Shown here: piece by piece, positions 817-13,551 of the stretch | Layout of the letters: the number at the start of each line of letters is the position of its first letter | How positions within the stretch are numbered: the stretch's first letter is position 1 | DNA from: a bacterium | Lineage (GTDB): Bacteria > Sysuimicrobiota > Sysuimicrobiia > Sysuimicrobiales > Segetimicrobiaceae | Assembly (NCBI GenBank): GCA_035691305.1 | Contig: DASSJF010000050.1 | Span: forward strand, 1 to 64,000 | Length of the DNA stretch: 64,000 bases | Direction: 5' to 3' | The notes under the pieces: model-generated | What the model saw: only the letters and a program-made list of their open reading frames with translations | Database searches by the model: none | What the model was told of the DNA's origin: nothing | Position numbers and translations under genes: made by a program

Positions 817-2493
817 CTACTGTTGCGACTCGCCCCGCAGGCGCTCCACTTCGCTCTGCCACCGCTCGACCTCTTTTTCGAGCGCGATCATCTTGATCTC
901 GCGCCCGACGACGACCTCCTCGAACTTCTCGAGCTCGAGGATCTTCTCTTGAAGCTCGAGCTTCGATTTCTCGAGGTCGCGCACGACGCGCTCATAGGCG
1001 CGCATGTCGCGGAGGATGCCGATCACGCCGATGGCTTTCCCGTCGGAGTCGCGGAGGGCCGAGGCGTTGAGCGTGGTCGGGATGACTTCGCCGGTCGCGG
1101 ACCGCGGGTTGAGGCGGACGTTGCGGATCACGCCGCGCTCGACGACCTCGCGCACCGCGGCGAGGAACTCCCGGGTCTCTTGAGGCGAGATGAACCGGGA
1201 GAGCGACTGCTCGATCACTTCGTCGCGGCGGAAGCCGAGCACTTCGGACACCGCGTCGTTGGTGTGGAGGATCTTGCCTTCGAGGTCGGAGACGAACACC
1301 GGGTCCGGGGCGTTCTTGATCAGGGCTTCCGCGTAGGCGCGCGCTTTGTCGAGCTCGCGCATGTCGCGGAGGATGCCGATCGCGCCGATGGCTTTCCCGT
1401 CGGAGTCGCGGAGGGCCGAGGCGTTGAGCGTGGTCGGGATGACTTCGCCGGTCGCGGACCGCGGGTTGAGGCGGACGTTGCGGATCACGCCGCGCTCGAC
1501 GACCTCGCGCAACGCCGCGAGGAACTCGCGCGTTTCCTCGGGGGAGATGAACCGGGAGAGCGACTGCTCGATCACTTCGTCGCGGCGGAACCCGAGGAGC
1601 TGGGAGACCGCGTCGTTGGACTCTAAGATTTTGCCTTCGAGGTCGGAGACGAACACCGGGTCCGGGGCGTTCTTGATCAGGCTTTCCGCGTAGGCGCGGG
1701 CTTTGTCGAGCTCGCGCATGTCGCGGAGGATGCCGATCGCGCCGATGGCCTGGCCGTCGGAGTCGCGGAGGGCCGAGGCGTTGAGCGCGGTCGGAATGCC
1801 CTCGCCGGTCGCGCTCTTCGGGTTGAGGCGGACGTTGCGGATCACGCCCCGCTCGACGACCTCGCGCAGCACCGCGAGGAACTCGCGCGTTTCCTCGGGG
1901 GAGATGAACCGGGAGAGCGACTGCTCGATCACCTCGTCGCGGCGGAACCCGAGAAGCTGGGAGACGGCGTCGTTCGATTCGATGATCTTGCCTTCGAGGT
2001 CGGAGACGAACACCGGGTCCGGGGCGTTCTTGATCAGGGCTTCCGCGTAGGCGCGCGCCTTGCCGATCTCGCGCATGTCGCGGAGGATGCCGATCGCGCC
2101 GATGGCTTTCCCGTCGGAGTCGCGGAGGGCCGAGGCGTTGAGCGCGGTCGGAATGATCTCCCCGGTCGCGCTCTTCGGGTTGAGGCGGACGTTGCGCGTC
2201 ACGCCCCGCTCGACGACCTCGCGCAACGCCGCGAGGAACTCGCGCGTTTCCTCGGGGGAGATGAACCGGGAGAGCGACTGCTCGATCACTTCGTCGCGGC
2301 GGAACCCGAGAAGCTGGGAGACCGCGTCGTTCGTCTGGAGAATGCGGCCTTCGAGGTCGGACACGAATACGGGATCGGGCGCGTTGCCGATGATGATGTT
2401 GGCGTCCAGCGCGCCCGTCGCCCTGGCGCCTTCCAGGCGCTCGGAAGCACGCGTCCCGGACAAGACTTCCGTGGACTGCCGCTTACGCTCCAC
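817..2493 (-). CDS. Quadruple PAS-domain sensor protein, no output domain
   Basis: A soluble 558-residue protein with a short N-terminal tail, four tandem PAS domains of 119 residues each (about residues 30-500) and a C-terminal coiled coil containing GREIKMI, a motif that usually sits just before HisKA in hybrid sensors. There is no kinase, GGDEF or other output module; the histidine kinase begins three bases after the stop, so the two probably form a split two-component sensor. The GTG start at 2493 is chosen because GGGGGGAG lies six bases upstream; longer readings to 2586 add only Arg/His-rich sequence. The PAS domains carry no His or Cys that would point to a specific cofactor, so the ligand is unknown. 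Confidence 0.85.
   Translation of the reverse strand: MERKRQSTEVLSGTRASERLEGARATGALDANIIIGNAPDPVFVSDLEGRILQTNDAVSQLLGFRRDEVIEQSLSRFISPEETREFLAALREVVERGVTRNVRLNPKSATGEIIPTALNASALRDSDGKAIGAIGILRDMREIGKARAYAEALIKNAPDPVFVSDLEGKIIESNDAVSQLLGFRRDEVIEQSLSRFISPEETREFLAVLREVVERGVIRNVRLNPKSATGEGIPTALNASALRDSDGQAIGAIGILRDMRELDKARAYAESLIKNAPDPVFVSDLEGKILESNDAVSQLLGFRRDEVIEQSLSRFISPEETREFLAALREVVERGVIRNVRLNPRSATGEVIPTTLNASALRDSDGKAIGAIGILRDMRELDKARAYAEALIKNAPDPVFVSDLEGKILHTNDAVSEVLGFRRDEVIEQSLSRFISPQETREFLAAVREVVERGVIRNVRLNPRSATGEVIPTTLNASALRDSDGKAIGVIGILRDMRAYERVVRDLEKSKLELQEKILELEKFEEVVVGREIKMIALEKEVERWQSEVERLRGESQQ
1001..2400 (-). repeat. Four tandem 357-bp PAS repeats
   Basis: The segment starting CGCATGTCGC recurs at 1001, 1358, 1715 and 2072, exactly 357 bp (119 codons) apart. 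The units are nearly identical at DNA level, differing at scattered positions such as LESND/IESND/LQTND. Such uniformity points to recent duplication or gene conversion, and makes the locus prone to copy-number change and misassembly. Confidence 0.9.
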
Positions 2494-11335: not shown

Positions 11336-11848
11336 TTATTCCGGCGGCGCGGTCGACCGCGCCGCCGCGTTTGCCGCGGCGACGAGCGCGTTGCGGAGTG
11401 CGCCCACGATCTCGAGGATGCCGTTGCCGAGAATCAGCGCTTTGCTGCCGGGGATGTCGTGGCCGGGCAGCGTGACGAGGTACGGCGGCGCGTGCGGCGG
11501 CAGCGGCGGCAGCGGTTCGAAGGCCTCTCGCGTGAGCGCGGACGCCGCCTTCTCGAGCGCGGCCAGCCGGTCTGCCAGCGCGGACGGCGCGTCGTCGGAC
11601 GCGGAGCCGGGCGGCGCGGCGCCGTCCGGCAGGACGGCCGGCAACAGCCGGCGGGCCTCCCGGAACGTCCGGCCGAGGTCGGCGAAGACGGCGCGCACCT
11701 CGTCGTCGTAAGAACGCCCGACGCCGGTGCGCGGATAGTCGGGGCGCGCCTTCTTCAGCGGTTCGTACTGGGACAGCCGGCGGAGGTCGTGTGCCCGAGC
11801 CTCGAGCACCTCGAGAGTCTTCCAGAATTCGATGGCGTCCGCGTCCAT
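11336..11848 (-). CDS. Hypothetical protein, helical, unknown function
   Basis: A 170-residue protein, mostly helical: an N-terminal acidic helix (MDADAIEFWKTLEVLEARAH), a charged middle and a Pro-rich stretch (PLPPLPPHAPPYL) before a C-terminal segment ending ILEIVGALRNALVAAANAA. No signal peptide, catalytic motif or metal site is recognised. Coding is supported by the long open frame with typical third-position G/C bias and by its fit in a row of minus-strand genes, just downstream of the toxin-antitoxin pair. The start is uncertain because no Shine-Dalgarno sequence is obvious before the ATG. Confidence 0.55.
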   Translation of the reverse strand: MDADAIEFWKTLEVLEARAHDLRRLSQYEPLKKARPDYPRTGVGRSYDDEVRAVFADLGRTFREARRLLPAVLPDGAAPPGSASDDAPSALADRLAALEKAASALTREAFEPLPPLPPHAPPYLVTLPGHDIPGSKALILGNGILEIVGALRNALVAAANAAARSTAPPE

Positions 11849-11855
11849 GTTGGAC

Positions 11856-12320
11856 TTAATCCGCTGTTCGCGTTTCAGGATCGACCACAGCCAGCCTTGG
11901 GAAATAGGTCCGGTAGTATCCTCGGTCGCGGGTCAGCAGCCGGCTCGCCTGAACCATCGCGTGGCCCCCGATGAGGAAGTCGGTGATCACACGGCGCCGC
12001 GGGACGATCGCGCGGCGGCAATGAGGGCACCGGTCCCGGGGCTGCTCCTTGGCGCGCCGCCGGTAACGCTTCCAGGCGTCGCCGGCGCTTACCAGCGATT
12101 CCGGTTCGAAGCCGGTCATTTGGACTCCGGCGTCGCCGAGAAACCGATCGAGGTCGCCGGCGTGCGCGAAGTGCGCCGTGAGTTCCGCGTACACGACCGG
12201 GCAGATGACAACAGGGCCGCTTCGCGCGGCCGACAGCAATGCTGTGCGGGACGCGTCTGCGTGCTCCGGATCGTCGAGGAGCAGATCAAACAAGACGTTC
12301 GAATCGACGGCGACTGTCAT
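11856..12320 (-). CDS. vapC: PIN-domain toxin of a VapBC-type module
   Basis: A 154-residue PIN-domain ribonuclease. The acidic active-site residues are Asp in AVDSNVLFDLL at the N-terminus, Glu in YAELTAHF near residue 50 and Asp residues in VITDFLIGGHA near 115. Members cleave tRNA or rRNA and are held inactive by the cognate antitoxin. An insertion with a CPHC pair (RDRCPHCRRAI) sits before the third acidic site and is typical of a PIN subgroup with a small zinc-knuckle-like loop. The ATG overlaps the antitoxin stop by four bases (ATGA), so translation is coupled and the antitoxin is made first. Confidence 0.88.
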   Translation of the reverse strand: MTVAVDSNVLFDLLLDDPEHADASRTALLSAARSGPVVICPVVYAELTAHFAHAGDLDRFLGDAGVQMTGFEPESLVSAGDAWKRYRRRAKEQPRDRCPHCRRAIVPRRRVITDFLIGGHAMVQASRLLTRDRGYYRTYFPRLAVVDPETRTAD

Positions 12321-12556
12321 TTGCCCCGCAGGGTTTCGATGACGACATCCGTCCTCGCTGCCTTGCCGCCGCGCTTTAGAAACCCGCGCCACCGATCAAG
12401 GGCCGTGCCGGTGACGCGCTTCCGTAGAATTATCGCGCCGCTCCGAACTTCGAAATCCACTTGTGCCCCAGGCCCCAGGGCCAGGGCGTCCCTTGCCGCT
12501 TTCGGCAGAGTAATTTGTCCCTTTCGCGTCACGGTTGCCACAGGCGGCGTCACCAT
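12317..12556 (-). CDS. vapB: AbrB/SpoVT-type antitoxin
   Basis: A 79-residue DNA-binding antitoxin with the swapped-hairpin AbrB domain at the N-terminus (TVTRKGQITLPKAARDALAL then GAQVDFEV) and a C-terminal tail that should bind and block the PIN toxin. These proteins repress their own promoter, alone and with the toxin. The ATG at 12556 lies six to seven bases downstream of a strong -10 box, so the mRNA is probably leaderless; a TTG two codons upstream would fall inside the untranscribed region. Three 14-bp-spaced GCATTAC repeats cover the promoter and are likely binding sites. Confidence 0.88.
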   Translation of the reverse strand: MVTPPVATVTRKGQITLPKAARDALALGPGAQVDFEVRSGAIILRKRVTGTALDRWRGFLKRGGKAARTDVVIETLRGK

Positions 12557-12561
12557 CCGCA

Positions 12562-12590
12562 ATTGTAATGCAAACCGGGTAATGCGTCAA
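12562..12590 (-). promoter_or_regulatory. Sigma-70 promoter of the vapBC module, leaderless start
   Basis: On the minus strand TTGACG (12590-12585) and TACAAT (12567-12562) are separated by exactly 17 bp. The predicted transcription start falls on or next to the A of the antitoxin ATG at 12556, leaving no room for a ribosome binding site. Confidence 0.75.
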
Positions 12591-12599
12591 GAGTAATGC
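12565..12599 (-). repeat. Three GCATTAC direct repeats at 14-bp period (putative operator)
   Basis: GTAATGC occurs on the plus strand at 12565, 12579 and 12593 (GCATTAC on the coding strand), exactly 14 bp apart. The repeats overlap the -10 box, the spacer and the region beside the -35 box. The arrangement suits cooperative autorepression by the AbrB-type antitoxin, which is inferred rather than shown. Confidence 0.65.
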
Positions 12600-12678
12600 C
12601 GCATTGCGTTCATGATATCGTCCGCAGTCTACGGCGGCGGGTGGGGAAAACGCGCGCCGTTCGGGAACCCATCTCGCT

Positions 12679-13551
12679 GTGAACGTGAGCGGCGCCGGCT
12701 GGAAGCGCACCCTCTCTCTGCCCTCTTCGGTCAGGCTGGTCTGGCACGCCTCGGAGCCGTTTCCGCGCGACGTGCCGCTGGACGAATTCTACGGGCGCAT
12801 CGAGGTGCCGCCGGGGCCGGACGGCCTCCCGCCCATCATCGCCAACATGGTGATGACCCAGAACGGCGAGGCGACGATCGACGGCAAGGCGGCGCCGATC
12901 GGCACGCCGGTGGACCGGTTCGTCCTGGGCCGCCTGCGGACGTCGGCGGATGTGCTGCTCTCCGGCGCCGGCACGATGCTCGCCGAGGACCTCTCGGCGC
13001 TCGTGCCCGAAGGGGACCTGGCGCGCCGGACCGCGGCGGGACGCCCCGCTCGCCTGCTGGCCGCGCTCGTCGCCACGGGCGTCGCGTGGAGCGACGACGT
13101 GCTGGCCAAGAAGTTTTTCACCGACCCGCGCTTCGACCGGCTGATCATCACCGGCGACCGGCCCAGCCCGGAGCAGGTCCGGCGGCTCGAAGCGCGCGGC
13201 GTGGAAGTGCTGCGCGTCGAAGCGGGACCGGACGGGCGCCCGCGGACGCGCGCGGCGGTCGGCGCGCTCGGCGCGCGCGGCGCGCGTCTCGTGCTGACGG
13301 AGGGCGGGCCGCGGGTGCTCGCGTCGCTCATGCGCGAGCGCCTCGTTGTCGACTACTTCCTGACGACGAGCCCGCTCGTCACCGGCGAGCCAAAGGCGCA
13401 GATGCCGGTCGCGGCGCACGTCACCGCCGGCGGCCGCCCGCTGCTGCTGTCGCGCCGGAGCCGCCACGAATACGCCTTTCGAGACCCGGAAACGGGCGCG
13501 CCGCTGATCGAGGCGTACGACCGGTTTCGTGTCGTGTATCCGCGGGTGTGA
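12679..13551 (+). CDS. RibD C-terminal-type reductase (dihydrofolate reductase fold)
   Basis: A 290-residue protein with one RibD_C domain: ANMVMTQNGEATIDGKA near residue 55 corresponds to the substrate-binding strand, followed by SADVLLSGAGTMLAED and the NADPH-binding LVLTEGGPRVLASLM near 215. Full RibD proteins join a deaminase to this reductase; the deaminase is absent here, so this is the stand-alone pyrimidine reductase-like form. Such proteins act in riboflavin synthesis or on other small heterocycles, and no riboflavin genes are nearby to decide. The GTG at 12679 is used; a GTG two codons on is equally possible. It is divergent from the toxin-antitoxin module. Confidence 0.8.
   Translation: MNVSGAGWKRTLSLPSSVRLVWHASEPFPRDVPLDEFYGRIEVPPGPDGLPPIIANMVMTQNGEATIDGKAAPIGTPVDRFVLGRLRTSADVLLSGAGTMLAEDLSALVPEGDLARRTAAGRPARLLAALVATGVAWSDDVLAKKFFTDPRFDRLIITGDRPSPEQVRRLEARGVEVLRVEAGPDGRPRTRAAVGALGARGARLVLTEGGPRVLASLMRERLVVDYFLTTSPLVTGEPKAQMPVAAHVTAGGRPLLLSRRSRHEYAFRDPETGAPLIEAYDRFRVVYPRV

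Follow-up and report, generated by a model that had tools for sequence, protein, structure and literature searches.

A vapBC operon with three GCATTAC repeats at a 14-bp step: a putative autoregulatory operator and a probable GTG start for the antitoxin

We find that the minus strand of the window (the whole 64,000-nucleotide stretch of bacterial DNA that was analyzed) carries an ordinary type II VapBC toxin-antitoxin operon whose antitoxin is of the AbrB type, and that three copies of the heptamer GCATTAC lie across its promoter. The explanation that best fits the evidence as a whole, and that we consider likely, is a VapBC operon in which the GCATTAC triplet serves as the autoregulatory operator and the mRNA has a leader, VapB starting at GTG 12541.

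The antitoxin gene, vapB (12541-12317, minus strand, with GTG 12541 as its most probable start), encodes a small protein of DNA-binding type with an AbrB/MazE fold (PF04014, E = 3.8e-11; TIGR01439 also matched). Directly downstream lies vapC (12320-11856, minus strand), predicted to encode a PIN-domain ribonuclease (PF01850, E = 1.6e-9), and the two genes overlap in an ATGA at 12320-12317 that joins the antitoxin stop to the toxin start. The first-pass annotation had proposed both a toxin-antitoxin pair with an AbrB-type antitoxin and a toxin start coupled by ATGA; the two domain matches bear out the former, and the overlap the latter. The acidic residues D6, E46, D114, and D132 are all kept in the window VapC; among relatives, D6 and E46 are present in 125 out of 125, D114 in 121, and D132 in 117. 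In several relatives (L019, L020, L025, L026, and L066), VapC has a zinc-ribbon-like insert, CPxC-N9/10-CxxC, immediately ahead of a DFLIGxHA motif; the window protein has lost about 10 residues including the first cysteine pair and retains only the second CxxC (CPHC, residues ~98-101). A 170-codon open reading frame without a match in Pfam (11848-11336, minus strand) begins a few bases past the vapC stop and could be cotranscribed. Among viral contigs, the query used found no relative, and a viral origin was set aside.

A promoter scan places a -35 hexamer, TTGACG, at 12590-12585 and, after a 17-nt spacer, a -10 hexamer, TACAAT, at 12567-12562 (minus strand). This promoter, already proposed from a first inspection of the sequence, matches the consensus at 10 out of 12 positions and is the sole match in 11700-12800 (0.1 expected). 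The three GCATTAC copies are identical and exactly 14 bp apart: Repeat 1 (12599-12593, its TTAC at 12596-12593) lies 2 nt upstream of the -35 hexamer; repeat 2 (12585-12579) lies in the spacer, its first G common with the -35 hexamer; and repeat 3 (12571-12565) contributes the TAC that begins the -10 hexamer. The claim that GCATTAC recurs every 14 bp across both promoter elements is thereby confirmed in position and identity. Repeat 1 together with an inverted partial copy just upstream forms a near-perfect palindrome, GCAATGCGGCATTAC (12607-12593, minus strand), and the inverted copy is perhaps a fourth half-site.

Repeat 3 overlaps the -10 hexamer, and -10 hexamers often begin with TAC themselves. 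The repeats could in principle be a product of chance or a by-product of the promoter elements, an explanation we find scarcely credible. The full triplet pattern, with up to three mismatches, has one match in the window and none in 100 dinucleotide shuffles; the 14-bp step differs from the distance between the -35 and -10 elements (23 bp between hexamer starts); and the 14-bp spacing is common to relatives, a comparative test that already contradicts this explanation. A scan for evenly spaced exact 7-mer triplets in the window returned GCATTAC, one GC-rich triplet elsewhere, and no others. In the 3.58-Mb genome, exact GCATTAC pairs occur at this site only. We also considered a genome-wide GCATTAC regulon and rejected it, there being a single exact site and two-mismatch pairs being no more common than in a reversed control.

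We gathered relatives of this VapC from named genomes, from this phylum, and from further samples, and located the AbrB-type antitoxin before each; 131 nonredundant vapB upstream regions were retained after de-duplication. Expected spacing counts derive from 100 dinucleotide-preserving shuffles. TTAC proves to be the half-site common to these relatives. Tandem TTAC occurs at a lag of 14 bp in nine of the 131 loci (0.51 expected), at 15 bp in 12 (0.38 expected), at 28 bp in nine (0.23 expected), and at 26 bp in six. The palindromic arrangement TTAC-N7-GTAA (an offset of 11 from TTAC to GTAA) is found in 16 loci (0.20 expected), and GTAA is followed by TTAC at 17 bp in eight and at 16 bp in seven. 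The shuffles never exceed, at any lag, four, three, and three loci for same-strand TTAC, TTAC..GTAA, and GTAA..TTAC, respectively. The 14-bp loci include members of the Chloroflexota (L019, L020, and L025), Verrucomicrobiota (L030), and Acidobacteriota (L037). They are not nine independent events, because many of the relatives have common ancestors: mapped onto the VapC tree, the 14-bp lag needs five changes, of which supported branches force only two. The 14-bp hypothesis came from the window itself; without it the count is eight, including L113, whose pair is a short simple repeat well away from the promoter.

The half-site also coincides with promoter elements: of 49 consensus promoters in the set, 35 have a TAC-type -10 element, and in 18 of these a T precedes it. 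Since the TTAC half-site and its spacing recur in relatives above expectation, it is very probable that the GCATTAC repeats form the autoregulatory operator of vapBC, with conserved TTAC half-sites running across the -35 and -10 elements as its putative form. The link between repeats and antitoxin is purely comparative, so one may ask whether another regulator binds the repeats and VapB is not their reader. We regard this as very unlikely: the TTAC half-site travels with vapB through several phyla, and the genome holds no further exact copies, as expected of a dedicated autoregulator.

Across the 131 loci, the half-site also varies with the loop motif of the antitoxin: xKGQ goes with TTAC, EKGQ with CTAC and TTAC, and xRGQ with ATAC and TGAT. 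TTAC dominates in 57 out of 92 KGQ loci and in none of the 33 RGQ loci. A recognition rule from KGQ or RGQ to half-site was nevertheless rejected: the association is clear, but supported branches provide only one independent pair, and it is confounded by ancestry.

In the clade of this VapC, multiples of 14 make up 16 out of 36 same-strand differences between half-sites, and 23 out of 48 opposite-strand differences are congruent to 11 modulo 14. We scanned the seven closest relatives for three equally spaced sites, leaving the window out and building the half-site matrix from other relatives. The mean score peaks at 14 bp (12.5; runner-up, 5.4), a value reached by none of 1000 shuffles. Among the eight close members, window included, 14 bp ranks first in five and second in two; it is not the best spacing in L066 and L026. 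L064 has decayed copies (GTATCGC, GCCTTGC, and GCCTTAC) at the same three positions as the window repeats.

Most half-sites of the clade fall at 0, 14, and 28 on one strand and at 11, 25, and 39 on the other, and individual loci hold different subsets: F0 F14 F28 R39 in L019; F0 F14 R25 R39 in L025; and F0 R11 F28 in L067, L175, and L121. All of these subsets would be explained by a palindromic dimer site of 15 bp that recurs at 14-bp intervals. A second group has 10 and 26 instead, near a 13-bp step. We tentatively propose that the VapB proteins of the clade read one lattice, in which 15-bp TTAC-N7-GTAA sites overlap at a 14-bp step and from which the individual loci have retained different half-sites. 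The window would have kept only the three on the same strand; its second half-sites at +11 are poorly kept (GCAT, GCAT, and GATG, versus GTAA). One step of 14 bp is 14/10.5 = 1.33 turns, a rotation of ~120 degrees between neighboring sites, so that neighboring dimers might climb the helix by 120 degrees per step and not sit on a dyad, which would make the VapBC-DNA assembly translational and not palindromic.

One claim of the first-pass annotation that does not fit the comparison is that transcription begins on A12556 and that the antitoxin is made from a leaderless mRNA at that ATG. The -10 element lies 5 nt from ATG 12556 and 20 nt from GTG 12541; neither distance is the 6-nt gap seen in other leaderless-looking vapB genes. 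The frame from ATG 12556 reads MVTPPVATVTRKGQ, and GTG 12541 is its codon 6. From this GTG the protein reads VATVTRKGQ, and the relatives, whose start codons were assigned by a simple rule in what are mostly metagenome assemblies, begin MATVTRKGQ (L025 and L064), MATITSKGQ (L066), MATVSSKGQ (L020), and MAIVTSKGQ (L026). The homologous start is therefore GTG 12541, and the extra residues MVTPP are not conserved among relatives. The promoters agree with this register: L064 and L026 have TTGAC-17-TACACT followed by 20 nt and ATG, and the window has TTGACG-17-TACAAT followed by 20 nt and GTG. Measured from GTG 12541, TTAC stands at -55, -41, and -27 in the window, at -55 and -41 in L025, and at -27 in L064 and L026. 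Ungapped promoter identity to the window is 31/62 for L064 and 27/62 for L026, with zero shift the best of 51 shifts.

The ribosome-binding evidence points the same way. A Shine-Dalgarno-like element, GGATGGTGA (12558-12550, minus strand), contains the very ATG proposed as the leaderless start, and the Shine-Dalgarno-like GGAUGGUGA spans it. The assembly yielded no 16S 3' end; pairing to the standard anti-Shine-Dalgarno sequence has a duplex energy of -11.4 kcal/mol before GTG 12541 versus -2.7 kcal/mol before ATG 12556. Clear Shine-Dalgarno sequences precede the starts of L064 and L026; that of the window lies a few nucleotides further from the start than theirs, and some of it may precede the point where transcription begins. 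A transcript beginning at the ATG would still have GGTGA in its 14- to 15-nt leader (-7.2 kcal/mol).

Leaderless toxin-antitoxin transcripts are a well-documented phenomenon, dominating the toxin-antitoxin pairs of M. tuberculosis (PMC3898074), and the same geometry appears in our set. In 18 of the 131 vapB loci, exactly 6 nt separate the -10 element from the ATG (TTGAC-16/18-TAnnnT; 0.005 expected for gaps of 5-7 nt), many of them in another branch. Loci with a consensus promoter near the start comprise these 18, one with a gap of 7 nt, and the window alone with a gap of 5 nt. The 6-nt vapB genes come from several phyla (e.g., L009, L010, L036, L060, L079, L080, L082, L144, L151, and L155), which suggests that leaderless antitoxins exist outside actinobacteria. 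The only other PF04014 antitoxin of this genome, paired with a PIN-like toxin (L006; G000:C41, ~1220-1351, minus strand), also has a promoter of leaderless type, TTGACA-16-TAGAGT-6-ATG.

These parallels, together with the mere 5 nt between the -10 element and ATG 12556, speak for a leaderless start in the window. Against it, the nearest relatives, which have this same promoter, begin 15 nt downstream behind Shine-Dalgarno leaders, and a 6-nt gap as in the leaderless loci would start the transcript at T12555, so that the ATG would be lost. The genome, sampled as 20 stretches, shows Shine-Dalgarno enrichment at starts over 457 kb (0.42 of first ATGs vs. 0.12 of internal ones), and general leaderless use was rejected, as no promoter-plus-5-to-7-nt signature was seen in these 457 kb. 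Because the homologous starts, the leader length, the operator register, and the Shine-Dalgarno match all favor GTG 12541, the leaderless reading is disfavored: we hold it to be unlikely, and the earlier claim is probably wrong. A 5'-terminal AUG at 12556 might be used in addition, since it is in frame with GTG 12541.

With the start at GTG 12541, the operon would work as follows. VapB dimers, probably within the VapBC complex, would read TTAC half-sites through the beta1-beta2 loop (the RKGQ stretch) and fill neighboring sites at 14-bp intervals, the first upstream of the -35 element, the next within the spacer, and the last over the -10 element. Occupancy of these sites would block RNA polymerase, a repression by occlusion, and with the antitoxin lost the promoter would be free again and expression would rise; binding, cooperativity, and derepression are here predicted by analogy with the family. 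The 5' end of the mRNA would most likely lie at ~12556-12554, giving a leader of 13-15 nt with a GGUGA Shine-Dalgarno element; VapB would be translated from GTG 12541 and VapC through ATGA coupling.

The 131 loci provide a sizeable body of sequence-only data on operator recognition by AbrB-type antitoxins (half-site, spacing, and orientation), and the 14-bp operator lattice is directly testable by binding assays with respaced repeats. The set also points to leaderless-looking vapB genes outside actinobacteria, and the window adds a caution: where an in-frame ATG upstream of the start lies close to a promoter, that promoter can pass for leaderless.

Direct repeats are known from related systems. 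NtrPR of Sinorhizobium meliloti, a vapBC-type pair, binds a direct repeat in its own promoter, and MraZ is a protein of the AbrB-superfamily fold. In Mollicutes, MraZ binds direct repeats AAAGTG[T/G] in its own promoter but, unlike the window VapB, is no toxin-antitoxin protein (PMC8475190). A published account (PMC3920265) describes AbrB-fold VapB dimers in Rickettsia felis VapBC2, part of a 4+4 complex that sits on curved promoter DNA of ~26 bp; going by this description, the window shares the AbrB-fold VapB. By the same account, the E. coli MazEF operator is similar in having an AbrB-fold antitoxin and three related motifs side by side across the promoter, but it differs in its alternating palindromes and MazF toxin, where the window has direct repeats and a PIN toxin (PMC3920265).

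No close match to solved VapBC structures was detected by sequence similarity. In organization, the window resembles VapBC of the Shigella/Salmonella type, with an AbrB-type antitoxin gene followed by a PIN toxin gene and operators over -10 and -35 (Dienemann 2011, PMC3384007). In Shigella, two octamers bind two sites over these elements, whereas the window has three 7-bp direct repeats, all identical, at a 14-bp step; the Shigella loop residues 8-11 are predicted to read the bases, the same beta1-beta2 loop that we propose here (PMC3384007). The suggestion of an unusual multimeric binding mode stands in part: successive repeats do lie on different faces of the helix, but the spacing recurs elsewhere and overlapping dimer sites fit it. 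Nor is the geometry without precedent, because the DNA-binding domains of the Shigella octamer are also not whole turns apart and are rotated by 56 degrees (PMC3384007). The 14-bp step is thus interesting but not clearly an unusual binding mode, and it shares its nonintegral helical spacing with Shigella VapBC.
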